The notes under the pieces: model-generated
Seen by the model: the letters and a program-made list of their open reading frames with translations, nothing else
Databases searched by the model: none
Told to the model about the DNA's origin: nothing
From: Thermoanaerobaculia bacterium
Lineage (GTDB): Bacteria; Acidobacteriota; Thermoanaerobaculia; Gp7-AA8
Length of the DNA stretch: 53,578 bases
Reading direction: 5' to 3'
NCBI GenBank assembly: GCA_017883205.1
Contig: JADGNZ010000042.1
Coordinates: forward strand, 1-53,578
Translations under genes and position numbers: made by a program
Shown here: positions 7,889 through 47,308 of the stretch, in pieces
Layout: the number at the start of each line of letters is the position of its first letter
How positions within the stretch are numbered: the first letter of the stretch is position 1

Positions 7889-7929
7889 ACGAAACTCTTC
7901 GTTGACATCCACGAAAAACTTCGTATGAT
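7889..7929 (+). promoter_or_regulatory. BlaI-type promoter with two operators
   Basis: A sigma-70-like promoter is plain: TTGACA at 7902-7907, a 16-base spacer, and TATGAT at 7924-7929. Two copies of the dyad ACGAA-N4-TTCGT flank and overlap it, one at 7889-7902 touching the -35 and one at 7911-7924 filling the spacer and touching the -10. Their centres are 22 bases apart, so the two sites lie on about the same face of the helix. BlaI/MecI repressors bind such dyads as dimers; the downstream gene encodes one. Autorepression is therefore expected. Confidence 0.8.
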
Positions 7930-7954
7930 TGCTTGCGTACAAGAGGAAACCACC

Positions 7955-8344
7955 ATGACCGACCGACAACCGCCACGACCGACCGACTCCGAGCTTGCCA
8001 TCCTGGGCGTGCTCTGGGAGCGCGGACCGAGCACCGTCCGCGACGTCCACGACGCACTGAATAAAGATGGCTCCACCGGCTACACCACCGTCCTGAAGAT
8101 TCTGCAGATCATGACCGAGAAAGGTCTGGTCGTTCGCGACGAGACCGAGCGCGCGCATGTCTACGAATCGCGCTACGGCGAACAGAAGACGCAGCGCCAG
8201 CTCTTGGCCGATCTCGCCGAGCGAGCCTTCGGCGGTTCCGCCACCAAACTCGTGATGCAAGCACTCTCGGGGCGCAAAGCAAGCGCCGACGAGCTGACTG
8301 CCATCCGCAACTTGCTCGACACCCTGGAAGGAGAAAAACGATGA
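7955..8344 (+). CDS. BlaI/MecI/CopY-family transcriptional repressor
   Basis: 129 residues. The start at 7955 has GAGG about ten bases upstream; an in-frame ATG at 7925 overlaps the -10 element and is rejected. It has the winged-helix pattern of the Penicillinase_R family: PTDSELAILGVLWERGPSTV, a recognition region around STGYTTVLKILQIM, and a wing KGLVVRDETERAHVYE. A C-terminal dimerisation region of about 50 residues follows. In the family, cleavage by the partner M56 protease releases the operators. The stop codon overlaps the ATG of the M56 gene (ATGA), so the two are translationally coupled. Twin operators lie just upstream. Confidence 0.93.
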   Translation: MTDRQPPRPTDSELAILGVLWERGPSTVRDVHDALNKDGSTGYTTVLKILQIMTEKGLVVRDETERAHVYESRYGEQKTQRQLLADLAERAFGGSATKLVMQALSGRKASADELTAIRNLLDTLEGEKR

Positions 8345-10503
8345 ACGGACTGGGCAACCTACTGGGCACTCCTCTGGCGCAGGCGATCGGCTGGGCGCTG
8401 GTTCACCTTCTCTGGCAGGGCCTGCTCGTCGCGGCCATCCTCGCCGCCACGCTTGCACTCCTTTCGAAGCAGAGCGCGAACGCGCGCTACCTCGCCTCCT
8501 GCGGCGCGCTGGTCCTGCTCGTGATTCTCGGCGCGGCGACAGCGTATCGGTCGTACGAGGGGGGTCGCGTTTCGGGGGTCGGGAGTCGGAACGAAACCGG
8601 CACCATCGCACTCCCAGCGAACCTCGACGCTTCCTCGGGAGATCTCAGCTCCGACACCCGACTCCCGACACCCGACACCCGCTTCGAGCTATCCACCTTC
8701 GCCAAAGCCCAGCTCCCGAAAGTCGTCCTCATCTGGCTCACCGGCGTTCTGCTGCTGTCCGTGCGGCTTCTTTTCGGATGGCTGCGCGCGCATGCGATCG
8801 CGAAGCGCAACGCCACGGATGCTGCGCCGGAATGGCAGCGCGCCGCGCGGCGTCTGGCGCACGCGCTGAACCTTCGCCGGGCCGTACAGCTTCTCGAGTC
8901 GGCCGCTGTCGAAGTGCCGACCGTGATCGGATGGCTTCGTCCCGTCGTCCTTCTTCCCGCGGCCACGCTCACGGGACTTTCCACCGAACAGATGGAGATG
9001 ATCCTTGCGCACGAGCTGGCGCATGTCCGCCGCAACGACTTCTTCGTCAACCTGATGCAGGCGGTCGTCGAGACGCTGCTTTTCTACCATCCGGCAGTGT
9101 GGTGGATCTCGAACCGCATCCGCGTGGAGCGCGAGCATTGCTGCGATGACGTGGCCGTCTCCGTCACCGGCAACGCCCTTGTTTACGCACGCGCGCTGAC
9201 CCGTCTGGAAGAGCTGCGCGTCGCCGATGCACAGGCCTTCATCGCCGCGAACGGCGGCTCGCTCATCGGCCGCATCCGCCGCCTGGCGGGAGCGCGCGTC
9301 GAATCACCGAACGCGCCGTCGCGCTTCGTGGCCGGCGCCGCGCTGCTCGTGGTCCTCGTGGCGCTGATCGTCGCGCCGTCGCTTCCGCTGCGCGGTGAAC
9401 AACAGAAGCCCGTCGATGCGAAAGCGACACCGAAGCCGCAGACAGCGCAGAGCAGCGTCGAGGTGAAAGCCGAGACGGTCGAAACGGACGTCGAGACCGA
9501 AACGCCCGAGGCTGACATGAACGATACGGTCGTTCCGGCGCTTGCTCCGCGCGCAGCCATCGAAGGCGGCGTCCGAGGCGGCGTTGAAGGTGGAGTCGCA
9601 GGCGGGATCCCCGGCGGAGTCGACGGCGGCATCGCAGGAGGAATCGCGGACGGCGTCGTTGACGGCGTCGCCGGAAACGTCGCACCAACTGCTCCACGCG
9701 CCTTCATGTGGGACGGCCAGCCGGCCATCGCCATCGCGCCGCTGGCGCGCGCGGCGGTGTCACCACGAGTCGCCGTCGCCATCGCCCCAACCGTCCGCGC
9801 GATCACAGCGGCCGCACCGCGAATCGCCATGAGTGCAGTCCGCGGCTATGAGTACGCCTACGAGCAGGAAACACCCGAGCCACCTGAGCCGCCCGACACG
9901 CCAGGCGCTCCTCGGCCGGCGCACACGCCGCGTCCTCCGCGCCTGCCCTTCGCACGTCATCACATCGGCGAAGGCGGCAAGCTGACCGTCGATGACCTGA
10001 TCAAGCTCCGAGCCACTGGCGTCACTCCCGCCTACATCGACGCGATGCGTGGTGTGGGACTGGGTGAGCTTTCCCTCGACGAGATCGCCGACATGAAAGC
10101 CGTCGGCGTCACACCGGACTACATCAGCGCTCTTCGCGCTGCCGGGATCAAGTTCGACAGCGTCCGCAACGTCACCGAGCTGCGCGCCGTCGGCGTCACC
10201 GTCGAATACGCCGCACAGATGCGCGCGGCCGGATACGGCAACCTCACCACCAAACAGCTCGTCGAGATGCGCGCCTTGGGTGTCTCGCCAGCGTATGTCA
10301 AGCAGCTCAACGACGCCGGCTACCACAGCCTGACGCCGAACGAGCTCGTGGAGCTGCGCGCGCAGAGAGTCAATCCTGAATTCATCAAGTCGCTCAACGA
10401 CGCCGGCTACACGAACCTCTCCGTGAAGGATCTCGTCCGTATGGCCGCGACGGGAGTCAACGCAGACTTCATTCGCGATCTGGCGAAGTACAAGGTGAAG
10501 TGA
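8341..10503 (+). CDS. M56 (BlaR1-like) membrane metalloprotease with a repeat ectodomain
   Basis: 720 residues. The N-terminal part is a multi-pass membrane region (segments near residues 13-35, 44-62 and 123-143). Then comes the M56 zinc site HELAH at 224-228, a conserved FYHPAVWW block, and REHCCDDVAV (Glu265 a likely ligand). Another membrane segment lies near residues 325-345. After it the sensor part differs from BlaR1: instead of a penicillin-binding domain there is a Gly/Val-rich low-complexity stretch (about 400-450), a Pro-rich linker, and six ~28-residue helical repeats (about 545-720) with a V(T/S)P-Y/F-I core. The same repeat occurs in the secreted protein encoded next. By family, signal binding outside leads to cleavage of the BlaI repressor. 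Residues ~73-114 are encoded by a hairpin repeat. Confidence 0.9.
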   Translation: MNGLGNLLGTPLAQAIGWALVHLLWQGLLVAAILAATLALLSKQSANARYLASCGALVLLVILGAATAYRSYEGGRVSGVGSRNETGTIALPANLDASSGDLSSDTRLPTPDTRFELSTFAKAQLPKVVLIWLTGVLLLSVRLLFGWLRAHAIAKRNATDAAPEWQRAARRLAHALNLRRAVQLLESAAVEVPTVIGWLRPVVLLPAATLTGLSTEQMEMILAHELAHVRRNDFFVNLMQAVVETLLFYHPAVWWISNRIRVEREHCCDDVAVSVTGNALVYARALTRLEELRVADAQAFIAANGGSLIGRIRRLAGARVESPNAPSRFVAGAALLVVLVALIVAPSLPLRGEQQKPVDAKATPKPQTAQSSVEVKAETVETDVETETPEADMNDTVVPALAPRAAIEGGVRGGVEGGVAGGIPGGVDGGIAGGIADGVVDGVAGNVAPTAPRAFMWDGQPAIAIAPLARAAVSPRVAVAIAPTVRAITAAAPRIAMSAVRGYEYAYEQETPEPPEPPDTPGAPRPAHTPRPPRLPFARHHIGEGGKLTVDDLIKLRATGVTPAYIDAMRGVGLGELSLDEIADMKAVGVTPDYISALRAAGIKFDSVRNVTELRAVGVTVEYAAQMRAAGYGNLTTKQLVEMRALGVSPAYVKQLNDAGYHSLTPNELVELRAQRVNPEFIKSLNDAGYTNLSVKDLVRMAATGVNADFIRDLAKYKVK
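8559..8681. repeat. GGGTGTCGGG-type repeat (family F) inside the M56 gene
   Basis: The left arm (about 8559-8589) carries GGGGGTCGGGAGTCGG and the right arm (about 8652-8681) carries CCGACACCCGACTCCC-type units. This is the same sequence type that occurs between genes at 29636-29690 and around 38785 and 38970-39026. The insertion keeps the reading frame and adds about 40 residues to a loop between membrane segments. Confidence 0.75.
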
Positions 10504-35363: not shown

Positions 35364-36224
35364 TCACGCTGCCATCTGCATCCGCATTTTCGATTTCGCG
35401 CGGAGGTACATGGGGCCGATCGAGCCTAGCGGGAGGCCGAGGCGTTTGCTGACTTCGTCGTAGGCGAAGCCTTCGACGGCGATCAGGATGCAGAGCTTGC
35501 GCGACTGGTCGTCGAGGGCGGACAGGGCCTGGCGAAGGGCGATGGCGGTGTCGGGAGAGACGTTGCGCGTGTCGGGAAGGGACGCCAGCGTATCGTCGCC
35601 GTCGAACGTTTCGCGCCGGCGGACGGTGAGTCCGATCTGGCGCTTGCAGAGATTCGCGACCGTTCCGACGAGCCACGGTTTGGCCAATCGAATCAGATTA
35701 CGTTTTTCGAGAAAGAGCAGCCAGGCTTGCTGCACCACCTCTTCCGCTTCTTCCGCGCTCAGGCCGTAGCGTTTGCGCGGGATCGAGTGCAGCAGTCTAC
35801 GCAGGCCGAGGTGCAGTTGCTCGAGGTCGAGAGTCTCCTGTGCGTCTGCGAGCTTCTCCACTTCCGCCAGCAGGTCGGCGACGGCGGCGAGGATCTCCTC
35901 CCCAGTTGCCGGTTTCTGGATCACCATCGTCGAGCCTCGCCGCAGAACCTCCGAGACCATTTCCGGCGTGCTGTAACCGGTCAGGGTGACGACGCGCGAG
36001 CGCGGGCTGATCCGCCGGATTCCGTCGAGCAATGCCAGACCCTCGGCTTCCGTGTGCAGCCTGAGGTCGGCAACGACCACCGCGTAGAAGGTCGTCTCCA
36101 TCAACGACTCCGCGGTGCGCCGGTCGAAGGCGCCGGAGCTCTTGATCGCTTCCTCTTCCAGCAGGCACATCAGCCCGGACACAATCGCTTCTTCATCGTC
36201 GACAACCAGGACCCGTCTGCTCAT
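35364..36224 (-). CDS. Receiver domain fused to an ECF-type sigma factor
   Basis: 286 residues. The start at 36222-36224 follows AGAGGAAG. Residues 1-120 form a two-component receiver domain with the acidic pair Asp9-Asp10, the phospho-acceptor Asp53 in VVVADLRLH, Thr80/Thr82 in VVTLTGY and Lys104 in VIQKP. After a helical linker, residues ~135-200 resemble sigma-70 region 2 (EEAEEVVQQAWLLFLE then KPWLVGTVANLCKRQI). Residues ~228-283 resemble region 4 (ALSALDDQSRKLCILI, FAYDEVSKRLGLPLGSIGPMYLRAKSKM). ECF sigma factors normally answer to a separate anti-sigma; here phosphorylation could act directly. A DNA-binding regulator that only resembles sigma is the alternative. Upstream on the same strand lie a response regulator and a hybrid kinase. 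Confidence 0.85.
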   Translation of the reverse strand: MSRRVLVVDDEEAIVSGLMCLLEEEAIKSSGAFDRRTAESLMETTFYAVVVADLRLHTEAEGLALLDGIRRISPRSRVVTLTGYSTPEMVSEVLRRGSTMVIQKPATGEEILAAVADLLAEVEKLADAQETLDLEQLHLGLRRLLHSIPRKRYGLSAEEAEEVVQQAWLLFLEKRNLIRLAKPWLVGTVANLCKRQIGLTVRRRETFDGDDTLASLPDTRNVSPDTAIALRQALSALDDQSRKLCILIAVEGFAYDEVSKRLGLPLGSIGPMYLRAKSKMRMQMAA

Positions 36225-36368
36225 GTTCGCTTCCTCTGGCGTGCAAGAAGAGCAGGCGGCATACCGATCCTGAGATCGCGGCAAACCAATGAATATCAGT
36301 GGATTACGTGAAACACGTGTTCGGAGCAGGCGTGCGGAAAGCGGACAGCCGCTCTGAAACCGGCCACA

Positions 36369-36746
36369 TCACGGCGGCGACTGGCGAACACATTCGTCGA
36401 CGGTCGAGAGCAGCTCGTGGTAGTCGAACGGCTTGGCGATATTGGCAAACGTGCCGAAGTCGCGGTCCGACGCCAGTCTGGTGTAGCCGCTGAGAAGGAT
36501 GACGCGGCGCAGGATCGCGGGATCGGTCATCCTCCAATAATCGGTGAGGCGGCCCGCATCGAAGATCGGCATTTTCATGTCGAGCAGAATGACGTGGTAG
36601 TCCTTCTTCAACTCGACGGCGTCGATGCCATCGCGTAACGTCTCCACTTCGAATCCAGCCGTTTCCAGAAGTGTCTGCAGCAGCTCGCGAATGTGGTCGT
36701 CGTCGTCGATGATCAACGCGCGTTTCAATGATGGGTCAGGACTCAT
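36369..36746 (-). CDS. Single-domain response regulator
   Basis: 125 residues, receiver domain only, with no output domain. The acidic residues are in LIIDDDDHIREL, the phospho-acceptor is Asp56 in VILLDMKMP, the Ser/Thr switch is in VILLSGYT, and the lysine is in NIAKPFDYHELL. The ATG overlaps the stop of the hybrid kinase upstream (ATGA), so the two are coupled and the kinase is the likely phospho-donor. Without an output domain it probably works as a phosphorelay intermediate or by protein contact. The receiver-sigma gene starts 145 bases downstream. Confidence 0.93.
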   Translation of the reverse strand: MSPDPSLKRALIIDDDDHIRELLQTLLETAGFEVETLRDGIDAVELKKDYHVILLDMKMPIFDAGRLTDYWRMTDPAILRRVILLSGYTRLASDRDFGTFANIAKPFDYHELLSTVDECVRQSPP

Positions 36747-38683
36747 GACGTACCTTCCGACTCGACGTTCATCATCATCTCCAGCAGGTCCGTGACTTCG
36801 AACGGCTTCTGCAGGAATCGCGTGTGCGGGTCTTTGAGCAAGTTGCGAAGAGCCTGACGGTCACCGTGACCGGTGGCGAAGATGACCGGGAGCTCGCGGT
36901 CCATCTCGCGGATTAGGGCATAGACCTCGCTGCCATCCATGCCCGGAAGACCGAGGTCGAGCACGACGAGATCGGGATGAAAGCGGGCGATCGTATCCGC
37001 TGCCTCGAAGCCGCTGCCGATGGACTCCACTTCGATGCCGACCTCCTCCAGCAGCGCGGTGATGCCCTCGACGATCATCTGCTCATCGTCGATCAGCAGC
37101 ACTTTGCGCGAGGCCGGCGCTCGATTGACGCCTGTTTGCGCGGACTTCCTGGCCAGCGGAGGTGGCGCCGCTTTCGGCAGGAAGAGGTGGAACGTGCTGC
37201 CCCGGCCAAGCTCGCTCTCGGCGAAGATGTAGCCTTCATGCTGCGTCATGATCTGATGAGCCACGGCGAGACCCAGGCCCGTGCCGCCGCTTTGCCTCGT
37301 GGTGAAGAGGGGTTCGAAGATGCGCTCCATGACGTCGTGCGGCATACCCTTTCCGGTGTCCTTGATCGAGATTTGCACGAAGCGTTCAGGATACGGCACG
37401 ACGCCGAAAGGAAACGATGCATCGGCTCCGAGGTCATTCGCTTCAACCGTGAGCATTCCGCCGTCGGGCATGGCGTCGCGGGCATTCGCCACGAGGTTCG
37501 ACAGTACCTGTGAGATCTGCATGCGGTCGGCCGTTGCGTAAAGTCCGTGCGGAATGGCCGACACGATAGAGATCATGTTGCCGAGTACGTTCTCCGTTTC
37601 CGGAGCAAACGTCTCCCACCACTCGCGAACGTCGACCGCGGCCATGACCGGCTGATACGGCTGTGCAAAGCGAAGGATGTCGAGCACGATTCGACGCCCG
37701 CGCTGGATGGAGTTAGCGATGTGACCGGCGCCTTTGGCGATCAGATCGGGTTTCGCGTCCGGACGCTGCATCAACTCGGCGAAGGGCTGCATGCCCATGA
37801 GGACATTGTTGAACTCGTGCGCGACGGTGGCGGCGAGGCGGCCAAGTGCGCCGAGGCGGTTGGCCTGCGTCAGTTGCGCCTCGAGGAGCTTGCGGCCGGT
37901 GATGTCGCGGGCGTTCAGCACGATCGCCGAGGTCCGTCCCTTCTTGACCAGATTCGTGGCCATGATCTCGAAGGAGCGCCAGGCACCGCTGGCATGACGC
38001 ACCTGCAATTCGATGGTCTGGGCTGCGGCCGGATCCTCGATCTGGAGCGCCAGATAGCCGGCGGCTCTCCGCACATCGTCGGGATGGATCAGGTCGATGC
38101 CACGCATGCCGCGAAGGGTTCTCCTCGAGTATCCGAGAACTCTGCCGACGGAAGGACTGCCGTAGCGGAAGCTGCCGTCGAGCTCGATGATGGCGATGAT
38201 GTCGGAGACATTCTCGATGATCGAGCGGAAGTATTCCTCGCTTCGCAGAACCGCCCGAACTGCCTCCTCGCGCTCGGTCACATCGCGTGCGACGCCGCGA
38301 ATGACAGGAAGGGACTGCTCGCCCATCTCGAGTGTGTTGCGGTACTTCCAGATCCGCCGGCGACCGTCGCGCGTGACGATGTTCATGATGCCGTCAGCGA
38401 ACCCGTCGCGTTTCAATCGCTGCATGTAGGCGGTAAAGCCCCAGGAACTGTCCTTCGAGAGCAAATCCTGAATCGTCATCTTGCAAAGAACGACGGCGGG
38501 CATGCCGAGCGCGTCGCAGACGGACTGACTGACGAAGAGGAGGCGGCCGTCGAGATCATGCTTGCAGATCAGATCGGCGCTTGCCGCAGCCGGCGCGCCT
38601 CTGCCCGTTTCATCGAGTGTTCCCTGACGTCTCGGCATCGCTTCCTCGGGGTGACTCACTGCGTTCAATAGGTGTTCGAACAT
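36743..38683 (-). CDS. PAS-PAS hybrid histidine kinase with C-terminal receiver
   Basis: 646 residues, no membrane segment, so cytoplasmic. Domains in order: PAS 1 (about 30-135), PAS 2 (150-265), a dimerisation/phosphoacceptor helix with LAATVAHEFNNVLMG (His289), an ATPase domain with N box LVANARDA (Asn400), KDTGKGMP and GGTGLGLAVA (467-475), then a receiver (525-640) with Asp576 in LVVLDLGLPGMDG. The HEFNN box is the form seen in NtrB-like/HisKA kinases. The start could instead be the ATG at 38638, which has GAGGAAG just upstream. The gene overlaps the response regulator downstream; the receiver-sigma fusion follows, so a multistep relay is plausible. Confidence 0.92.
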   Translation of the reverse strand: MFEHLLNAVSHPEEAMPRRQGTLDETGRGAPAAASADLICKHDLDGRLLFVSQSVCDALGMPAVVLCKMTIQDLLSKDSSWGFTAYMQRLKRDGFADGIMNIVTRDGRRRIWKYRNTLEMGEQSLPVIRGVARDVTEREEAVRAVLRSEEYFRSIIENVSDIIAIIELDGSFRYGSPSVGRVLGYSRRTLRGMRGIDLIHPDDVRRAAGYLALQIEDPAAAQTIELQVRHASGAWRSFEIMATNLVKKGRTSAIVLNARDITGRKLLEAQLTQANRLGALGRLAATVAHEFNNVLMGMQPFAELMQRPDAKPDLIAKGAGHIANSIQRGRRIVLDILRFAQPYQPVMAAVDVREWWETFAPETENVLGNMISIVSAIPHGLYATADRMQISQVLSNLVANARDAMPDGGMLTVEANDLGADASFPFGVVPYPERFVQISIKDTGKGMPHDVMERIFEPLFTTRQSGGTGLGLAVAHQIMTQHEGYIFAESELGRGSTFHLFLPKAAPPPLARKSAQTGVNRAPASRKVLLIDDEQMIVEGITALLEEVGIEVESIGSGFEAADTIARFHPDLVVLDLGLPGMDGSEVYALIREMDRELPVIFATGHGDRQALRNLLKDPHTRFLQKPFEVTDLLEMMMNVESEGTS

Positions 38684-39094
38684 TGTTTCGGTGACGGCTT
38701 CCTCGCCGACTCCTTTGATGGGATTGCGGCGGGCTCACCGCGCTGAATAGGAGTGCCGGAGGAGGACCGAAAAAATACAAGCGCGGGGGGTGGGGAGTGG
38801 GAGAACTGGCTAATGAGGGAGCGCGAACGCCTACCTCGGCGCCCTCCGCGTCTCCGCGTGACCTTCTTTAGTATCCCGCGAAGACCTGAGTGTCATGGTG
38901 GGGGTGCTCGTCGTCTGTTTCTCATTCATGCCGCGAAGTTACTGAGCCTCACCACCCACATCGCTCCCACACCCGACCCCCGACTCCCGCCCCCCACCCC
39001 CAACACCCTACCCCCCACACCCCTGTATTTTTTCCGCTCCCCCAATGCACTTCCGCTTGACCCTGTCCCGAGGTCTCAAACAAAGGAAGTGCTT
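38684..39094. repeat. Repeat-filled divergent intergenic region
   Basis: 411 bases without a gene. A G-rich arm (GGGGGGTGGGGAGTGGG, near 38785) and a C-rich arm (CCCGACCCCCGACTCCCG and similar, 38970-39026) form a wide family F pair. Between them is a half copy of family A (CTCCGCGTCTCCGCGTGACC near 38843-38862). GAAAAAATACA near 38769 and TGTATTTTTTCCG near 39026 are complementary and lie just outside the F arms. Promoters for both the hybrid kinase and the receptor must lie here, but none is obvious. Confidence 0.7.
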
Positions 39095-41116
39095 GTGGCC
39101 AACGCTGGAAAAATCTGCGAACGACTCCGTTCAACCTTCATCAGCTTGCGCCGGAAAGGTCTGGCTACAGGATTCCTCGCCTTGTCGCTGGCCGCGGGAA
39201 CGCTCCAGGCGCAGGAAAGCCGCGATCTCTCCTCGCTCAGCGTCGACGATCTGATGAACGTCGAAGTGACCTCGGTGTCGCGAAAAGGGCAGAAGTTGTC
39301 GGACACCGCTGCCGCAGTCTTCGTCATCACGCAGGACGACATCCGCCGGTCGGGGGCAACGAGCATTCCGGAGGTTCTGCGCATCGTGCCGGGACTGGAC
39401 GTTGCGCGGATCAATGGAAACACATGGGCAATCTCGGCGCGCGGCTCCAACGGACAATACGCCAACAAGCTCCTGGTCATGATCGACGGCCGGACCGTCT
39501 ACACGCCGCTCTTTGCGGGCGTTTACTGGGATGTTCAGGACACGCTGCTCGAAGACATCGACCGCATCGAGGTGATCCGTGGTCCGGGGGGCACGCTATG
39601 GGGAGCGAACGCGGTCAACGGCATCATCAACATCGTCACCAAACACTCCATCGACACGCAGGGAACGCTCGTGTCTGCAGGCGGCGGAGCGGCGGACGGC
39701 TCGTCCGCCTCGGCACGCTATGGTGGATCCTTCGGGCACAACGGCAACTACCGCATCTTCGGAAAAACGTTCGATCACCCCGTCTCCTTCGGGGGCACGG
39801 ATCCGACCCACGACGCCTGGAGGGTGGGGCGCGGAGGCTTCCGCGCCGATTGGACCTCGCGGGATGGAGACAACTTCACGACTCAGGGTGACATCTATCG
39901 AGGAACGGAGACCACCCTGGGCGCCTTCAACCCAACCAGCCCTCTTGCGGATCGTGCCGCACTGAACCATATGGCGGGAGAGAACCTTCTATTCCGCTGG
40001 ACCTCCGTCCAATCAAGCCGGTCGGATACGACCTTGCAGGCGTTTTATGACTACAGCGCTCGATCACAGCCCAGCTTCGCGGACGGCCGGCGCACATTCG
40101 ATGTCGACCTGCAGAATCATCTGAAGCTCGGCAGATGGAATGACGTTGTTTGGGGGGCTGGGTACCGCCGCTCAGTGGATCGGCCTGGCGGCACTGCCTT
40201 GAGTCTCGTCCGCGATTCGAACATCGAGAACATCGCAAGCACGTTCGTTCAGGACGAGATTCTCGTGGGACAGCGCCTCCACCTGACCCTGGGTACGAAA
40301 CTCGAGTACGAGCCGGTTTCGGGTCTGCAACTGCAACCGACGTTACGCCTTCTATCCAGGATAAGCCCATCCCAGACAGTCTGGGCGGCGGCCACCAGCG
40401 CCGTCCGGATGCCGTCCGAAATAGAGCGTTACGTCCAGCTGTACGTGGGCGCGTTCCCCGATGCGAACGGCACCACGGGACTGGTCGTTCTGGCCGGTAA
40501 TCCGACGCTGGTTCCGGAGCGCGTCAATTCCTATGAGGTTGGCTATCGCTGGCAGGCCGCCACCAGCATGACCTTCGACGCCACCGCCTTTCACAGCCGC
40601 ATGTCTAATCTCGTCGGGGCGACAACGGGGAGGCCCTTCGTCGATTCCACTCGAAGAACGATCATCCCGATCACATTCGCCAACAACGCCGGCGGGAACG
40701 CAGATGGGGCCGAGTTTCTGTTCACGGACACCCTGACATCCGGCTGGAACGTCGCCCTCGGCTACGCCCTGCTTCGGACCTCATTGAAGACGATCGACGG
40801 GCTGCAATCCAGCACGGGCATTGACAGCTCCAGTCCTCGGAACCAGCTGCAACTGCGGTCTTCTACCCGATTATCACGACTGCTCGATCTCGACGCGTCT
40901 GCTTATTACGTCGGCCGGCTCGGCTCTGATGTTCCGAGCTATCTACGGCTCGATGCGCAACTGGTATGGAAACCGGCCCCGCGATGGGAGCTGAGCTTTT
41001 CGGGCCAGAACCTGCTCCGGGCGCGCCATCGTGAGTTCCTCGGAATCACTGGTGAAGCTGACCTGGCAACGGATGTCAAGCGAACGGTGAATGGCAAGAT
41101 CACATGGCGCTTTTGA
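39095..41116 (+). CDS. TonB-dependent outer-membrane receptor, first gene of a signalling operon
   Basis: 673 residues from a GTG at 39095 with AAAGGAAG seven bases upstream. Residues 1-37 contain a long signal sequence ending LQAQ. The mature N-terminus DLSSLSVDDLMNVEVTSVSRK is typical of a large class of plug domains, followed by VFVITQDDIRRSGATSIPEVL, LLVMIDGRTVYTPLFAGVYWD, RIEVIRGPGGTLWGANAVNG and a beta-barrel ending VNGKITWRF. There is no N-terminal STN signalling domain. The last 13 bases overlap the YfiR-like gene, which in turn overlaps the kinases, so receptor, periplasmic protein and sensor kinases are made together. The ligand is unknown. Confidence 0.92.
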   Translation: MANAGKICERLRSTFISLRRKGLATGFLALSLAAGTLQAQESRDLSSLSVDDLMNVEVTSVSRKGQKLSDTAAAVFVITQDDIRRSGATSIPEVLRIVPGLDVARINGNTWAISARGSNGQYANKLLVMIDGRTVYTPLFAGVYWDVQDTLLEDIDRIEVIRGPGGTLWGANAVNGIINIVTKHSIDTQGTLVSAGGGAADGSSASARYGGSFGHNGNYRIFGKTFDHPVSFGGTDPTHDAWRVGRGGFRADWTSRDGDNFTTQGDIYRGTETTLGAFNPTSPLADRAALNHMAGENLLFRWTSVQSSRSDTTLQAFYDYSARSQPSFADGRRTFDVDLQNHLKLGRWNDVVWGAGYRRSVDRPGGTALSLVRDSNIENIASTFVQDEILVGQRLHLTLGTKLEYEPVSGLQLQPTLRLLSRISPSQTVWAAATSAVRMPSEIERYVQLYVGAFPDANGTTGLVVLAGNPTLVPERVNSYEVGYRWQAATSMTFDATAFHSRMSNLVGATTGRPFVDSTRRTIIPITFANNAGGNADGAEFLFTDTLTSGWNVALGYALLRTSLKTIDGLQSSTGIDSSSPRNQLQLRSSTRLSRLLDLDASAYYVGRLGSDVPSYLRLDAQLVWKPAPRWELSFSGQNLLRARHREFLGITGEADLATDVKRTVNGKITWRF

Positions 41117-41703
41117 CATCGTCGCAGAGCGCCGGCAGAAGCGACACGCTGCGGCTTGTTCGTTTTCCGCTCGTGATCGTCGTGATCGCGATGGCCGGAT
41201 TGCGGACTCGAAGTGTCCAGGCACAAACGAGTGATGAATACCACGTGAAGGCGGCGTACATACTGAACTTCGCCCGCTTCATTGAATGGCCCGCGGACGT
41301 CCTGCCGGCCGGATCGCCAATGACCATCGGGATCGTAGGCGACGATCCGTTCGGCGGCACTCTCGATGATCTCCTGCGAGGCAAAACCGCAAATGGTCAT
41401 CCCATTCTGCTCAAGCATTTCCGCTGGAACGACATGGCCACGGGGTGCGAGATTGTCTTCATCAGCAGTTCCGAAGAACCCCATCTCGCGCAATTCCTTC
41501 GCTACCTCGGAACACAGAGCGTGCTGACGGTCAGTGACATCGACCGCTTCTCACTGCGGGGCGGCGTCATCGAGTTCCGAATGGTCGGCAACCGCGTTCG
41601 CTTCGACATCAACCGGGAGCCGGCCATCGCCGCGCGTCTGAGCATCAGCTCCAAACTGCTGAGTGTTGCTCGGGCGATTCATGAAGGGAGCGCCGAGAAG
41701 TGA
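41104..41703 (+). CDS. YfiR-family periplasmic regulator (DUF4154)
   Basis: 199 residues. The N-terminus has a hydrophobic signal sequence (about 20-40, ending SVQAQ). The DUF4154/YfiR pattern then follows: EYHVKAAYILNFARFIEWP, IGIVGDDPFGGTLDDLLRGK, CEIVFISSSEEPH, VLTVSDIDRFSLRGGVIEF and VRFDINREPAIAARLSISSKLLSVA. In Pseudomonas YfiR sits in the periplasm and represses the CHASE8-HAMP-GGDEF protein YfiN. Here no GGDEF gene follows. Instead the next gene is a histidine kinase whose membrane part has the same layout as YfiN, so I infer that YfiR gates a kinase. It overlaps the receptor gene upstream (13 bases) and the kinase downstream (GTGA). Confidence 0.9.
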   Translation: MALLTSSQSAGRSDTLRLVRFPLVIVVIAMAGLRTRSVQAQTSDEYHVKAAYILNFARFIEWPADVLPAGSPMTIGIVGDDPFGGTLDDLLRGKTANGHPILLKHFRWNDMATGCEIVFISSSEEPHLAQFLRYLGTQSVLTVSDIDRFSLRGGVIEFRMVGNRVRFDINREPAIAARLSISSKLLSVARAIHEGSAEK

Positions 41704-44393
41704 CCGCGAGGTGGAGAAACTCGATTCGCGGAAAGCTGATTCAGATCACGATGCTGGTGTGTCTGGTCGCAGTCCTGCTGGCGTGCGCGCTCTCCGTGGC
41801 TAAGGACGTCATCGACGAGCGCGAAGAGCTCGATACACATCTCAAGAGCTTTGGCGGGTTGATCAGTGCCGGCAGCGAGGCTCCGCTTGCCTTCAACGAT
41901 CGAAAGGCGGCCGAGGAGTCACTGTCCGTCCTTCGATTGAACAAGGCCTTCATCGGCGGCGGCATCTACACGGCGCGAGGCGATTTGTTCGCAAAATACT
42001 CTGCCAGTACAGTCTCGCTACCTCCGCACCTTCCAAGCGCGACAGCCGATAACGCAAGCAAGGAGGACCGCGTCGAGCTACGTCTTCCCATCACGCACGA
42101 TGGCGAGCGCATCGGCACCGTCTACCTCGTCGCCGATCAACGAGACCTCCGTGCCCGTTTGCAGGAAGACGCGCTATCCTCCGTGATCATCCTTCTTGTG
42201 TGCCTGACCGCCGGCTTCATCCTCACTTCGAAGCTGCAGAAAAAAGTCACGGCGCCGATCGTCGAGCTCGCGCGCGTCGCCGGCCACGTCTCGCAGCACA
42301 AGGACTACAGCGTCCGTGCAACTCCGCGCAACGCGAACAGCGGAGACGAGATCGCCAATCTGATCGCCGGATTCAACGGAATGCTCACCGAAATCGAGTA
42401 CCGTGACGACAGGCTCCTCCAGACGCAAACGGATCTCGAGAAGACGGTTGCCTGCCGCACCGAGGAGCTGACCAAAGCCAACAAAGAACTGCTCGCCGCC
42501 AAGAATGCCGCCGAGAAGACTGCCGAGGTCAACGTTCGACTGGCCCGGGAAAGCGCGCTGATTCTGAACAACGCCACCGACGGAATCCTCGGCATCGGTC
42601 TCGACAACCGGGCAACCTTCATCAACCCGGCCGGCAGCCGGATGCTCGGCATGACCCTGAGCGAGCTGCAGGAGACGTCGATTCACGCGGCCATCCACCA
42701 TTCGTACCCGGATGGCACGCCCTGGCCGGAAGCGGATTGTTCGATCAATCTGGAGATCCGCAAGGGCAAGAACTTCGGATCTCTGCACGACACATTCTGG
42801 CGGCCGGACGGCACGAGCTTTCCAGTTGAGTACTCCTCACAACCGATGTTCGATGAGGGGGGAACGCATGTCGGCGTCGTCGTCATCTTCCGCGATGTCA
42901 CCGAACGGCGTGCCGTCGAGCGGCTGAAGAGCGAATTCGTTTCGACCGTCAGTCACGAGCTGCGTACGCCGCTGACCTCGATCCGCGGCGCGCTCGGCCT
43001 CCTCGGCAGCGGGTTGCTCGGCACGATCGGCGACAAAGGCAAGCGCATGCTGGAGATCGCCGTCAGCAACACCGACCGCCTCGTCCGGCTCATCAACGAC
43101 ATCCTTGATATCGAACGGATCGGTTCCGGGAAGAGCGAATTGACGCGCGGCCATGTCGATGCACACGCCGTGATGGTTCAAGCGTTCGAGGGAGTTCTCT
43201 CGATGGCGGACCAGGCCGGCGTGCGGCTGGCGATCGAGCCAGCATCCGGCGACCTTTGGGGCGATGCCGACCGGATCGTGCAGACGCTCACCAACCTGCT
43301 CGGCAACGCCATCAAGTTCTCGCCCCGCGACACGACCGTGACCGTGAGCGGCGCTGCGAATGGCTCCGAGTTCGTGTTCTGCGTCAGCGATCAGGGGCGC
43401 GGCGTTCCCGAGGAGAAGCTCGATACGATCTTCGAGCGCTTCAGCCAGGTGGATGCCTCCGATTCCCGCGACAAAGGGGGCTCCGGCCTCGGCCTAGCCA
43501 TCTGCCAGAGCATCGTGCAGGCGCACGGCGGCCGAATCTGGGCCGAGAAGAACGAACCGGCCGGCAGCCGCTTTCAGTTCACCATTCCGCTGGCCGCTCC
43601 CTCAACGGCAGACAGCGAGACCATCCTGCCGCCACCCTCCAGGCACTTCCTCGTTTTTCAGAGCGACGATTCGACGAACATCGTGAATATCCTGGAACGA
43701 CGCGGATTCGGCGTCGTGACCGTAGCACCGTTATCCGGCGCGAGCGAAGTCGCCGCGAGCATGCAGCCCGACGCGATCATCCTCGATCTATCCGACAGCG
43801 GCAGCGGCCGTCTGATCGTCGAGGCGCTCCAGGCAAACGCCAATACGCGCGACATCCCCATCGTCGTCGTGGGACCGTTCCCCGATTCGGGCGAGAGCTA
43901 TGCGGGTGCGGTGGCGAGCTGGGTCGGCAAACCTTGCAAGGGTGACGACCTAAATCACGCCGTCGATCTCGCACTCGATCGTGGCGGCGTGCCGACCGTC
44001 CTCCTCGTGGAAGACGATCTCGATCTCTCACGGATCATGACCACGGTCCTGCAAAGCCACGGCATTCGGACTTTTCACGCGGTCACGGGCAAAGAAGCCG
44101 TACGTCTTTGCAGGCAACACGAGCCCCGTCTGATCGTTCTCGATCTCGTCCTCCCCGACATAGACGGCTACGAGGTCGTCAATTCTCTCCGCGGGAGCAA
44201 GACTCTCGGGCGAATCCCGCTTCTCGTCTACTCAGCGCTCGACGTCGGAAGCGCCGATCAGTCGCGCCTTCGCCTCGGGCCGACAGAGTTTCTGACGAAG
44301 AGCCGGTGCAGCCTGAAAGACGTTGAAGACCACATCATTCGCCTGCTCGAAGCAGTCAAGCCCCGGAAGGTTCAGGAACCTCATGCAGCCTAG
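41700..44393 (+). CDS. CHASE8-HAMP-PAS hybrid histidine kinase with two receivers
   Basis: 897 residues from a GTG overlapping the YfiR stop. Layout: membrane segment ~14-34, a periplasmic CHASE8-like domain (AGSEAPLAFNDRKAAEESL, IGGGIYTARGDLFAKY), membrane segment ~160-180, HAMP (TAPIVELARVAGHV), coiled coil, PAS (~275-405), HisKA with SHELRTPLTSIRG (His419), ATPase (LLGNAIKFSPRD, VSDQGRGVPEEKL, GGSGLGLAI), a first receiver-like domain (~640-755, Asp in AIILDLSDSGSG, Lys in WVGKPCKG) and a second receiver (~765-885, LIVLDLVLPDIDG, FLTKSRC). It is the inner-membrane sensor most directly coupled to YfiR. The following gene is a close paralogue. Confidence 0.93.
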   Translation: MTARWRNSIRGKLIQITMLVCLVAVLLACALSVAKDVIDEREELDTHLKSFGGLISAGSEAPLAFNDRKAAEESLSVLRLNKAFIGGGIYTARGDLFAKYSASTVSLPPHLPSATADNASKEDRVELRLPITHDGERIGTVYLVADQRDLRARLQEDALSSVIILLVCLTAGFILTSKLQKKVTAPIVELARVAGHVSQHKDYSVRATPRNANSGDEIANLIAGFNGMLTEIEYRDDRLLQTQTDLEKTVACRTEELTKANKELLAAKNAAEKTAEVNVRLARESALILNNATDGILGIGLDNRATFINPAGSRMLGMTLSELQETSIHAAIHHSYPDGTPWPEADCSINLEIRKGKNFGSLHDTFWRPDGTSFPVEYSSQPMFDEGGTHVGVVVIFRDVTERRAVERLKSEFVSTVSHELRTPLTSIRGALGLLGSGLLGTIGDKGKRMLEIAVSNTDRLVRLINDILDIERIGSGKSELTRGHVDAHAVMVQAFEGVLSMADQAGVRLAIEPASGDLWGDADRIVQTLTNLLGNAIKFSPRDTTVTVSGAANGSEFVFCVSDQGRGVPEEKLDTIFERFSQVDASDSRDKGGSGLGLAICQSIVQAHGGRIWAEKNEPAGSRFQFTIPLAAPSTADSETILPPPSRHFLVFQSDDSTNIVNILERRGFGVVTVAPLSGASEVAASMQPDAIILDLSDSGSGRLIVEALQANANTRDIPIVVVGPFPDSGESYAGAVASWVGKPCKGDDLNHAVDLALDRGGVPTVLLVEDDLDLSRIMTTVLQSHGIRTFHAVTGKEAVRLCRQHEPRLIVLDLVLPDIDGYEVVNSLRGSKTLGRIPLLVYSALDVGSADQSRLRLGPTEFLTKSRCSLKDVEDHIIRLLEAVKPRKVQEPHAA

Positions 44394-46761
44394 ACACACT
44401 CCGGCGTCACGGCCGATTCCGTTGACGGCTCCTTCAACACGCCAGTCTCTGCCGCCTTCGATTCGTGGAAGGCTGACGCGGATCAACATGCTGACCAGCA
44501 CGACCGCCGTGCTGCTCACCTGCCTCGGGCTCACAATCACGGGTCTTCTCAACGTACGGAAACGGATGACTGCCGACCTTTCGATGATCTCGCAAGTGGT
44601 CGGGACCAACACCACCGCGGCGTTGGCGAAAGGAGATCGTCAGGCGGCGCGTGCGGTCCTGAACACACTTCGCGCAAAGCCGTCGATCGTCGCTGCCGCA
44701 ATCTATACAAAGCAAGGGGAGCTGTTCGCCCGATACGAGCCGACGGCATCCGTCTCTGTTCCTCGCGTCTTGCAGCCCGACGGCTTTTATGACCGGCCTG
44801 ATCGCCTCGAATTGTTTTACGAGATCCGTTTCCAGCATGAGCGTCTGGGCACGCTTTACGTCGCTTCCGATGCCCGCGACCGCAACGCACGGCTGAAGGA
44901 ATACGCCGCAATCGCGGGAGGGATCGGCCTCTTTTCACTCCTCGTCGCTTATGTTTTGGCGGCGGCGTTACAAGGAAGTATCTCGAAACCAATCGTTGAG
45001 CTGGCACGCATCGCCGGGCTCATTGCGCGCGAGAGAAACTTCCACGTTCGGGCCAGTCCCTTCGGTGCAAATGGAAGTGCCGAGATCGCAAACCTGGTGG
45101 CGGGATTCAACAGCATGCTCGCGGAGATCGAGCAGCGCGACCTGGAAATGGCTCTCGACAAAACGGAGCTCGAGATGATTGTGGCCCTGCGCACCGAGGA
45201 GCTGCTCGCTGCAAAGAACGCCGCCGAACAGACCGCGGCGATCAACGCCAAACTTGCCAGCGAGAGCGCCTTGATCCTCAACAGCTCGAACGACGGCATC
45301 TTTGGTGTCGATCTCGACTCGGAACCTACGTTTCTCAATCCCGCCGGCTCCCGCATGCTCGGCCGCTCGCTCGCTGAATTGCAGGGAGCATCGATGCACC
45401 AACTCATTCACCATTCGCGCCCCGACGGAACGCCCTGGCCCGAAGCCGAATGTCACCTCGGTACAGCGTTACTTCGAGGCGAATCCTTCATGGCGACCGA
45501 TGACACATTCTGGCGGCCGGACGGCACATGTTTCCCGGTCGAGTACTCGGCCACACCGATGTTCAACGAAAGCGGCAACCGGCTCGGCGCAGTCGTCACG
45601 TTCCGCGACGTGACCGAACGGAAGGCCGTCGAACGGCTGAAGAGCGAATTCGTCTCGACCGTCAGCCACGAGCTGCGCACGCCGCTGACTTCCATTCGCG
45701 GAGCGCTCGGCCTGCTGGGCAGCGGGTTGCTCGGCCCGATCGAGGAAAAAAGTCAGCGAATGCTGCAGATCGCGGTCAGCAATACCGATCGCCTCGTCCG
45801 GCTCATCAACGACATTCTCGATCTGGAGAGGATGGGATCGGGAAACATCGAGCTATCACACCGCGCCTTCGATGCACACTCGGTCATGCTTCAGGCATCG
45901 GAAGGCGTTCAGCCGGTGGCCTGCCAGGCAGGCGTACGAATCGTCGTCGAGCCAGTATCCGCAGCGCTCCTCGGCGACAGCGACCGGATCATCCAGACCT
46001 TGACCAACCTGCTCGGCAACGCCATCAAGTTCTCGCCTCGCGACACGACCGTGACCCTGAGCGCCATTGCGAACGGCTCCGAGCTCGTGTTCTGCGTCAG
46101 CGATCAGGGGCGCGGCATCCCGGAGGAAAAGCTCGAGTCGATCTTCGAACGTTTCAGCCAGGTGGATGCCTCCGATTCCCGCGACAAAGGGGGCTCCGGC
46201 CTCGGACTCGCCATCTGCCAGAGCATCGTGCACGCGCACGGCGGCCGTATCTGGGCCGAGAAGAACGAGCCGGCCGGCAGCCGTTTTCAGTTCACGATTC
46301 CGCTGGCAGTTGCGTCCACCGTCAATGCAGAAAAAGACGACCTCGCTCGGCCCGTCGATATCGCCTGCAGCGAGCCCACGGTTCTCGTGGTGGAAGACGA
46401 TCTCGATCTCGCACGCGTCATGACCACGTCGCTGCAGAACCACGGCATCCGGACCCTTCATGCGCCCAACGGCAAAGATGCGATCCAGCTATCCACGCAG
46501 CACATGCCGAGTCTGATCGTCCTCGATCCCGGCCTACCTGACATCAGCGGCTTCGAAGTCGTCGACGCGTTGCGCCAGAACGCGGCTCTCACAGACATCC
46601 CGATCCTCGTCTACTCGGCGCTCGAAGTCGGGAGCGCCGATCGCCTTCGACTCGGGGCCACAGAGTTTCTGACGAAGAGCAGGTGCACTCCGGCGGAGTT
46701 CGAACGGCACGTCATGCGGCTGATCGCGGCTGTAACGAGCGGACGCCAGCACGCTGCGTAG
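44383..46761 (+). CDS. Paralogous CHASE8-HAMP-PAS hybrid histidine kinase with one receiver
   Basis: 792 residues. The ATG at 44383 overlaps the end of the preceding kinase by 11 bases and has AGGAAC just upstream; an in-frame ATG 60 bases earlier lies deeper in the previous gene. Same order as the neighbour: membrane segment, CHASE8-like domain, membrane segment, HAMP (SKPIVELARIAGLI), coiled coil, PAS, HisKA SHELRTPLTSIRG (His429), ATPase, but only one receiver (LIVLDPGLPDISG, FLTKSRC). The kinase cores share long identical stretches even in DNA, for example the segment coding FSQVDASDSRDKGGSGLGL. A tandem duplication, kept similar by selection or gene conversion, is clear. The periplasmic parts have diverged, so the two may sense different states. 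Confidence 0.93.
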   Translation: MQPRHTPASRPIPLTAPSTRQSLPPSIRGRLTRINMLTSTTAVLLTCLGLTITGLLNVRKRMTADLSMISQVVGTNTTAALAKGDRQAARAVLNTLRAKPSIVAAAIYTKQGELFARYEPTASVSVPRVLQPDGFYDRPDRLELFYEIRFQHERLGTLYVASDARDRNARLKEYAAIAGGIGLFSLLVAYVLAAALQGSISKPIVELARIAGLIARERNFHVRASPFGANGSAEIANLVAGFNSMLAEIEQRDLEMALDKTELEMIVALRTEELLAAKNAAEQTAAINAKLASESALILNSSNDGIFGVDLDSEPTFLNPAGSRMLGRSLAELQGASMHQLIHHSRPDGTPWPEAECHLGTALLRGESFMATDDTFWRPDGTCFPVEYSATPMFNESGNRLGAVVTFRDVTERKAVERLKSEFVSTVSHELRTPLTSIRGALGLLGSGLLGPIEEKSQRMLQIAVSNTDRLVRLINDILDLERMGSGNIELSHRAFDAHSVMLQASEGVQPVACQAGVRIVVEPVSAALLGDSDRIIQTLTNLLGNAIKFSPRDTTVTLSAIANGSELVFCVSDQGRGIPEEKLESIFERFSQVDASDSRDKGGSGLGLAICQSIVHAHGGRIWAEKNEPAGSRFQFTIPLAVASTVNAEKDDLARPVDIACSEPTVLVVEDDLDLARVMTTSLQNHGIRTLHAPNGKDAIQLSTQHMPSLIVLDPGLPDISGFEVVDALRQNAALTDIPILVYSALEVGSADRLRLGATEFLTKSRCTPAEFERHVMRLIAAVTSGRQHAA

Positions 46762-46864: not shown

Positions 46865-46912
46865 CCGTTCCCTCGCCATTCCTGCGACGTTTGTATTTTT
46901 CCGAGCGTCCCG

Positions 46913-47308
46913 ATGCACTCATCCAGCATGCCGCGTAAACATCTGCTTCTGGTCGTGGACGACGAAGACGACATCCGCGAAGTGGCCGGCCTGAGCTTGG
47001 ATCTGACCGAGGGCTGGACGGTCCTGACGGCCAACGGTGGTGCCGCGGGAATGGCGCTCGCGGCCTCCTCGCATCCCGACGCCATCCTCCTCGATGTGAT
47101 GATGCCGGACTGGGACGGCCCGACGACGCTACGAGCACTGCAGGGGCTGGACGTCACCGAGTCGATCCCCGTCATTTTCCTCACGGCGAAAGTTCAGGAA
47201 TCCGACCGGCAGAAGTTCATGCTCATGGGCGTCCGCGGAATCATCGCCAAGCCCTTCGATCCGCTCACCCTCGGCCAGCAGATCAGGAACCTCTTGTCGT
47301 GGAACTGA
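46913..47308 (+). CDS. Single-domain response regulator
   Basis: 131 residues, or 126 if translation starts at the second ATG (46928); neither has a good ribosome site. Receiver domain only: VVDDEDDIREVA, phospho-acceptor in AILLDVMMPDWDG, switch Thr in VIFLTAK, and Lys in GIIAKPFDPLTLG. It follows the two hybrid kinases on the same strand after a hairpin repeat, so it is probably in the same pathway but perhaps separately transcribed. It converges with the DUF486 gene, ending four bases before it. Confidence 0.92.
   Translation: MHSSSMPRKHLLLVVDDEDDIREVAGLSLDLTEGWTVLTANGGAAGMALAASSHPDAILLDVMMPDWDGPTTLRALQGLDVTESIPVIFLTAKVQESDRQKFMLMGVRGIIAKPFDPLTLGQQIRNLLSWN

Follow-up and report, generated by a model that had tools for sequence, protein, structure and literature searches.

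Can a sigma factor be placed under the direct control of a histidine kinase by a receiver domain fused to its N-terminus? The question is raised by one gene on contig JADGNZ010000042.1 of a soil Thermoanaerobaculia bacterium (Acidobacteriota; assembly GCA_017883205.1), of which the whole stretch analysed (53,578 nt, forward strand) is called the window here. The encoded protein, hereafter the fusion, carries a two-component receiver in front of the two domains of an extracytoplasmic function (ECF) sigma factor. Most descriptions of ECF sigma factors have them restrained by anti-sigma factors (PMC8103513). The answer proposed, to which a probability of roughly 0.64 is given, is that the fusion is a response regulator with a working ECF sigma output, which would be gated by a kinase, autoregulated and driving a secreted-fibre-like system. 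Both domains, their conservation, and a promoter-like element together with its placement were computed directly.

Domain architecture of the fusion

The sequence-only reading of this locus had described a receiver with Asp9/10, Asp53 and Lys104 followed by segments like sigma-70 regions 2 and 4. All of these receiver residues are present, and the protein is confirmed, by profile and structure prediction, as an intact receiver followed by an ECF sigma factor that is complete, with sigma2, a linker and sigma4. Pfam finds Response_reg at residues 5–115 (56.7 bits, cut-off 30.2) and Sigma70_r4_2 above its cut-off (27.9 against 25.7 bits), and the NCBIfam model TIGR02937 (sigma70-ECF) covers residues 134–283 with 48.0 bits (cut-off 42.9). 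Regions 2 and 4 are thereby borne out, all the more as TIGR02937, Sigma70_r2 and Sigma70_r4_2 each match 8/8 full-length members of the family at E<=0.01. The domain set is that of an ECF sigma factor, sigma2 and sigma4 with neither sigma1.1 nor sigma3. The gene starts with the ATG at 36224 on the minus strand, with GAGGAAG just 5' of it. Its homologues indicate that it is a real gene and not a chance open reading frame (ORF), because eight full-length members, the window protein included, are present in seven genomes.

In the receiver half, D9, D10, D53, T82, K104 and P105 are invariant in all eight full-length proteins, down to 41% overall identity, and the modelled fold superposes on a known receiver with a Z of 21.8 (1.6 Å over 129 residues). 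The whole-protein model (mean predicted local distance difference test, pLDDT, 82.6; predicted template modelling score, pTM, 0.48) comprises the receiver, whose alpha5 extends to residue 128, a three-helix sigma2, a low-confidence linker at about 204–223 and a four-helix sigma4. A fold search with this model was taken up by receivers and gave little on the sigma half, which was therefore modelled and searched separately. With the sigma half alone, Foldseek ranked ECF sigma factors best (E 2.7e-6), many of them from RNA polymerase initiation complexes (those of sigmaH, sigmaE and sigmaL included), and the first PhyR came at rank 34 (E 1.2e-2). Whole-length sigma superpositions gave root-mean-square deviations of 11–22 Å because the two sigma halves float, and the single-domain rows (5wuq_B, 4lup) were used instead: sigma4 superposes on SigW region 4 (Z 10.6, 1.2 Å, 62 residues) and sigma2 on region 2 of sigmaE in its complex with the -10 element, 4lup (Z 9.5, 3.0 Å, 77 residues), values which in helical bundles may reflect a common arrangement, according to the warning of the tool for Z below about 13.

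Core-binding residues were checked as well. The acidic stretch of sigma2.2 is kept in the fusion, where it reads EAEE at residues 159–162, and the same four positions hold at least two acidic residues in 10/10 sigma halves of the family. As output fold, the prediction gives paired ECF sigma2 and sigma4 domains and no ordinary DNA-binding domain. A LuxR or winged helix-turn-helix output domain was ruled out, no such Pfam match being found in the fusion.

A promoter-like element at the sigma loci

Alignment of the region preceding the kinase gene in the window genome (G000) and two relatives (G001 and G002) gave one conserved element. When the window was searched for TGTATTTTTTC-N13-CACYYC with up to three mismatches, 3 sites were found against 0.04 expected, and 0/100 shuffles gave as many. 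In its general form the element is bipartite (YGTATTTnT, 14–15 nt, SACY; the candidate core is also written TGTATTTTTT with SACT as second half) and stands before the kinase/regulator/sigma operon and before the divergent TonB/YfiR/CHASE8-kinase operon; element pairs are also present in the equivalent divergent region of G001 and G002. The site at 38750..38779 is proposed as a candidate site for the fusion's own sigma, which would amount to autoregulation. A classical ECF-like pattern (GAAC..GT), sought upstream in three genomes, gave one unconvincing site.

Seven context loci that lay outside the definition of the element (six from other genera plus L051, the second-copy locus of G001) held 9 sites of a relaxed form against a shuffled mean of 0.09 (largest value 2 in 100), one of the nine (L053) being dropped as meaningless, and 6 sites of the strict form against 0 in shuffles. 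At the loci of other genera the second half of the element is GACT, and this GAC form was learned from the context loci. Altogether, in G000, G001 (both copies), G002, G011, G016 and G018 the element stands ahead of the fusion gene or of the genes that run up to it.

Genome-wide scans extended the association. The pattern TGTATTTYT-N14/15-SACT occurs in 8/8 sigma-bearing genomes of the family (19 sites) and in 3/10 of the others (4 sites), with p = 0.004 and 2 sites for the reversed control, among 18 family genomes; in the same 18, the variant YGTATTTNT-N15-CACY was found in 5/8 sigma-bearing genomes (13 sites) and 3/10 others (4 sites), with 2 for the reversed control. Across 147 genomes of the class, TGTATTTTT-N14/15-SACYY is present in six of the nine sigma-bearing genomes (19 sites) and in 8/138 others, one site each (p = 1.7e-5), and its reversed control gave 1 site in the 147 genomes. 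For this class scan, the nine genomes that have a close sigma were taken as carriers, and four genomes with remote sigma matches were counted as non-carriers; seven of the sites lie outside the family and the order. The sites at G014:C38, G004 and G017, which are inside or overlap long ORFs, were counted but are distrusted, and so are the seven outside the family and order. Sigma-bearing loci went in part into the making of the patterns, so these census tests are not fully independent; what is independent in them is the location of the new genome-wide sites. In G009 (L162:4037-11549), an element pair is flanked on one side by the gene of a CHASE8 hybrid kinase and on the other by that of a PAS hybrid kinase, behind which lie TonB and YfiR genes.

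Spacing was compared over 25 chosen sites. This set leaves out G014:C38, G018:C7, G018:C12, G004:C109, G017:C472 and the seven class hits outside the family and order, as well as those sites of the N15-CACY scan that lack a clear gene start nearby (G000:C54, G005:C12, G007, G008, G011:C29, G011:C668 and two in G015). The gap after YGTATTT is 17 in G011, in G005 and at all but one site of the window genus, and 16 in G018, G016, G003 and G009. The exception in the window genus is a gap of 16 at G000:C3, beside a broken sigma copy. Against the trend, the second-copy site of G001 has a gap of 17, and the corresponding sigma clusters with the G018, G003 and G016 sigmas (support 88/88). The -10 half reads CAC at 9/25 chosen sites, all of them in the window genus, which has GAC sites too; some left-out hits outside that genus also read CAC. 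This variation in spacing and -10 parallels the sigma tree, but it also parallels the relationships of the genomes.

Genes behind the element

A secreted protein of 173–174 residues recurs behind the element. The site precedes its orthologues, 75–94% identical to the G000 copy, at G000:C20, G001:C145, G002:C56, G011:C449 and G003:C138, and the elements at G001:C179 and G016:C21, already seen in the context loci, precede orthologues too. At these seven sites and two in G018, the element starts 58–81 nt before the start codon. Some of the secreted-protein genes head clusters of chaperone and outer-membrane genes. At G000:C20 the secreted protein comes first, then a 212-aa ORF without a match and a protein called chaperone-like for its weak Ig-fold matches, which stay below cut-off; the fourth product, of 968 aa, has a pilus-formation N-terminal domain, CarboxypepD_reg and SPOR. 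In G016 the element is followed by the secreted protein, a small protein, a protein that resembles the chaperone-like one by eye, a SPOR protein and then the fusion gene itself. Likewise, the second fusion gene of G001 follows the secreted protein, with the element, and in G003 the fusion gene comes just after a SPOR protein of similar kind. In G018 the element precedes two similar genes, of which the one tested is DUF4402, and these are followed by genes for a PapD-like chaperone (24.0 bits against a cut-off of 23) and a SPOR protein; there the element also stands before the fusion gene, which is divergent from the DUF4402-type genes. The domains present suggest that the secreted system is fibre-like.

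The window neighbourhood

The features of the window that bear on the fusion are collected in Table 1. The hybrid kinase and the single-domain receiver lie directly upstream of the fusion gene on the same strand (minus), as the sequence-only reading had said, and the kinase is the probable input kinase of the fusion. A homologous kinase lies near 6/8 fusion genes (G000, both copies of G001, G002, G011 and G018), and orthologues of the single-domain regulator occupy the equivalent place in G001 and G002. In G001, G002 and G011, homologues of the CHASE8 kinase are encoded divergently from the kinase operon. The claim that no anti-sigma gene is visible stands for the 19 window proteins that were scanned with Pfam, among which no anti-sigma family match was found, and does not extend to every window ORF, since most ORFs of the first 24 kb and the last 4 kb lay outside that scan. 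Additionally, no other DNA-binding protein was found among the cluster proteins scanned with Pfam. Downstream of the fusion gene is an AstE/AspA-like gene. A second CHASE8 hybrid kinase (44323-46761) lies in tandem to the first, and at 7925-10503 the window holds a pair of genes for a BlaI-like penicillinase repressor and a BlaR1-like M56 peptidase.

Table 1. Genes and candidate promoter elements of the window around the receiver-ECF sigma fusion
Feature	Coordinates	Strand	Details
Receiver-ECF sigma fusion	35364..36224	minus	286 aa; receiver ~1-120, sigma2 134-206, sigma4 224-285
Single-domain response regulator	36369..36746	minus	125 aa; start codon overlaps kinase stop
Hybrid histidine kinase PAS-PAS-HisKA-HATPase_c-receiver	36743..38683	minus	646 aa
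Promoter-like element TGTATTTTTTC-N13-CACTCC	38750..38779	minus	96 nt before kinase start codon; conserved in G001, G002
Promoter-like element, second copy	39024..39053	plus	71 nt before probable GTG (39095) of TonB receptor; similar site in G002
TonB-dependent receptor	39095..41116	plus	probable GTG start 39095 (ORF listed from 38753); divergent from kinase operon
YfiR/HmsC-like protein (DUF4154)	41104..41703	plus	Pfam
CHASE8-HAMP-PAS-HisKA-HATPase_c kinase, two receiver matches	41700..44393	plus	Pfam
Promoter-like element, third copy, 2 mismatches	46892..46921	plus	36 nt before likely start of single-domain response regulator
Single-domain response regulator after third element	46928..47308	plus	ORF listed from 46913

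Distribution and relatives

The window genome (G000; 6.37 Mb, 105 contigs) shares its genus with G001. Sixty genomes taken as relatives were searched and 9 matched at E<=1e-20, seven with full-length fusions and two of one genus with the sigma half. The eight full-length fusions are spread over seven genomes, two being in G001, and the closest are 74 and 76% identical over the whole length. Sigma carriers make up 8/18 genomes of the family, and the ninth carrier, G018, belongs to another family of the same order. In the phylum, 4/396 genomes match at E<=1e-30, one of them the receiver-less G005, and at E<=1e-17 receiver plus sigma matches occur in G000, G002 and G018 only, among the matches listed, in a census that scored the best 6 candidates per genome and may thus miss rare independent fusions. 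As far as sampled (396 Acidobacteriota genomes), and leaving aside the separate fusion of G446 described below, the fusion is confined to one order of Acidobacteriota. A scan of named genomes gave 1 full-length homologue, with 31/32 loci receiver-only, and tblastn in plasmids gave 4 records with receiver parts only, 0 of which cover 80%.

In genus g4 (G005, L052:8095-8742; G014, L053:3196-3840) the sigma half is kept, 51–53% identical, with at most a receiver remnant that lacks the phospho-acceptor. The first 48 residues of the G005 protein resemble the family receivers (0/300 shuffles score as high against 7/8 of them), and in the same shuffle comparison those of G014 show no resemblance. On the sigma tree both proteins fall inside the fusion clade (96/99), whose inner forks are unresolved, so that the tree alone cannot tell loss of the receiver from its primary absence; the remnant in G005 favours loss, to judge from these residues. 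A kinase without a C-terminal receiver is encoded nearby in both genomes. In G005 a sigma-54 activator gene is divergent from the sigma gene.

A separate receiver-ECF fusion is found in G446 (L108:2445-3410, 321 aa), a genome of the same class in another family. It is 28% identical to the window fusion, and no kinase was seen beside it on its 7.9-kb contig. Its sigma groups with receiver-less sigmas of G477 and G425 (100/99), and because of this placement the fusion of receiver and sigma would most simply have arisen twice. In G425 (L109:166-3573) the fused parts are present as separate genes, a related receiver-less ECF gene having as neighbours a single-domain receiver and a gene of the small-GTPase-like/GAF/histidine-kinase type. 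The window genome itself carries a second sigma copy of the fusion's family (contig C3; L054:9925-10976, minus strand) that is broken over two frames, directly behind a gene for an RsbW-like HATPase with a promoter-like element before it. ECF-like genes with another N-terminal extension, not receiver-looking, were seen at L092 (G002:C116) and L093 (G000:C76).

Proposed mechanism and alternative explanations

In the mechanism proposed, the unphosphorylated receiver would at rest pack on sigma2/sigma4, or hold them apart, and so keep the sigma from core RNA polymerase. The co-encoded hybrid kinase would phosphorylate Asp53, directly or through a relay in which the small receiver may be a partner or a sink, and phosphorylation would make the receiver release the sigma. 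The resulting holoenzyme would read YGTATTTnT - 14/15 nt - SACY promoters, boosting its own kinase/regulator/sigma operon together with the divergent TonB/YfiR/CHASE8-kinase operon, and it would turn on the secreted 173-aa protein, which in several genomes heads a group of genes that also encodes a large outer-membrane-type protein with pilus-N and SPOR domains and a protein resembling a chaperone. Sigma activity, the reading of the element by the fusion's sigma, phosphotransfer and the direction of the switch are what we infer here. As the acidic stretch is kept, occlusion and release appear more likely than charge mimicry of the EcfP style. The fuller account, in which a kinase licenses the sigma through its fused receiver without an anti-sigma, a new T-rich promoter class is used, the sigma feeds back positively on its own kinases and drives the secreted-fibre system, spacing and -10 shifted in step with the diverging sigmas, and most of the receiver was later lost in one genus, is given slightly better than even odds.

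Several observations weigh against this mechanism. Sigma70_r2 scores 17.9 bits on the window fusion protein, below its cut-off of 24; the whole-protein model, given its low pTM, does not predict how the domains are placed relative to one another; and the sigma half predicted alone reaches a pLDDT of 76.8 with a pTM of only 0.43, to which the helical-bundle caveat on the sigma superpositions must be added. Classical receivers commonly, though not universally, carry an aromatic switch residue (Tyr or Phe) three positions before the Lys. In the fusions this residue is Val or Leu in 8/8 and never aromatic; hence the classical receiver switch cannot apply as such, and the signal path within the fusion receiver, as its sequence implies, must differ from the textbook route. 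Neither in G016 nor on the short contig of G003 was a kinase found next to the fusion. On the side of the promoter, ECF sigma factors usually read a GGAAC-type -35, from which the T-rich -35 of the element differs; the site at 46892 is weaker because of its closeness to the start codon (36 nt); the partial dependence of the scans on sigma-bearing loci has been mentioned; and in G009 the element occurs twice between divergent kinases with no fusion detected, where another factor may read it or a sigma may have escaped detection.

Some of these points would also suit a different arrangement, in which an active sigma half reads the element while the receiver, instead of gating by phosphorylation, tethers, dimerises or is degenerating, the output being set by transcription of the operon. 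The missing aromatic residue agrees with it, as does genus g4, which keeps the sigma without a phospho-acceptor. It is nevertheless thought unlikely, since the phosphorylation residues are invariant in all eight fusions, however diverged, and a homologous kinase accompanies most of them; moreover, the g4 kinases nearby, devoid of a C-terminal receiver, are consistent with control that was rewired. The element might instead be read by another shared sigma or regulator, with the fusion as only one of its targets, as the two copies in G009 and the element before the RsbW-like gene beside the broken sigma copy of G000:C3 could suggest. The strong co-occurrence of sigma and element in the scans, and the fact that in six genomes the element precedes the fusion gene itself or the genes ahead of it, leave this explanation a small chance.

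Alternatively, the sigma half might have ceased to initiate transcription and, like PhyR, titrate an anti-sigma upon phosphorylation of the receiver. Both proteins combine a receiver with a sigma2/sigma4-like half, and PhyR folds were found, at low rank, in the structure search. Against such a mimic stand the reversed domain order, the acidic core-binding stretch that the fusion keeps, and the degenerate core- and promoter-contacting regions of PhyR, as described in a review (PMC8103513). NepR, the anti-sigma in question, was found in 0/18 family genomes, with a positive control in Caulobacter, and the PhyR_sigma-like profile PF22233 gives the fusion 12.9 bits against a cut-off of 27. The same profile matches weakly in 13/18 family genomes, above cut-off in G011 only, and also in non-alphaproteobacterial controls, so that it is not specific. 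A mimic is accordingly rated improbable. Scarcely credible, finally, is an ordinary response regulator that uses the region-4 helix-turn-helix alone as its DNA-binding domain: Sigma70_r4_2 is indeed the stronger of the two Pfam sigma matches, but sigma2 is matched by profile in 8/8 members and has a predicted fold, and the candidate site is bipartite with a near-constant, sigma-like spacing. The reading of a response regulator with a kinase-gated sigma output thus stays preferred, and the earlier proposal of a putatively active sigma with an N-terminal receiver and an adjoining kinase is supported as a sequence-based reading, none of the three outcomes that it had set as refuting having turned up.

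Relation to known systems

The closest comparison is PhyR of the alphaproteobacterial general stress response, which likewise combines a receiver with an ECF-like sigma2/sigma4 half in a single chain and takes its input from histidine kinases. In PhyR the sigma-like half comes first, its contacts to core and DNA are degenerate and it acts on NepR as an anti-anti-sigma (PMC8103513); the contrast in domain order drawn by the sequence-only reading, sigma-like then receiver in PhyR and receiver then sigma here, is right. The ECFs of Planctomycetes with N-terminal extensions (former ECF87-89) share with the fusion a regulatory extension at the N-terminus and no adjacent anti-sigma, and differ from it in that the extension here is an identifiable receiver with its phosphorylation residues. 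For N-terminal extensions of this kind, the same review says that mechanistic information does not exist and that how they regulate the sigma is not known (PMC8103513).

Control of an ECF by phosphorylation without an anti-sigma is known from EcfP/PknT (ECF43) and EcfK/PknS, where a Ser/Thr kinase activates; for the fusion it is a prediction. EcfP has a Thr in sigma2.2 in place of the charge of the DAED motif (PMC8999054), whereas the fusion keeps the acidic stretch and its expected phospho-acceptor is the receiver Asp. In Porphyromonas, the two-component system PorY/PorX acts with the ECF sigma SigP, these being separate proteins there (PMC4800418). TciR of Vogesella is, like the fusion, a non-canonical response regulator wired to a sigma cycle, with the difference that its receiver is fused to an RsbW-like, anti-sigma-like output and not to a sigma (PMC12826045). 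Among the matches listed in a literature search, no description of a receiver N-terminal to an active ECF sigma was found, though earlier cataloguing is possible because subscription journals were mostly outside that search.

What would be new here is the addition of a candidate promoter and a candidate regulon to the receiver-sigma architecture. Because BeF3 or D53 variants allow the state of the receiver extension to be fixed by chemical means, and a concrete promoter is predicted, gating by the receiver is testable in one in vitro assay. If the proposed mechanism is true, it would provide synthetic biology with a sigma factor that a histidine kinase controls without intermediaries. For the organisms themselves, the sites described here make up a first candidate regulon for the fusion's sigma, in a little-studied order of Acidobacteriota.

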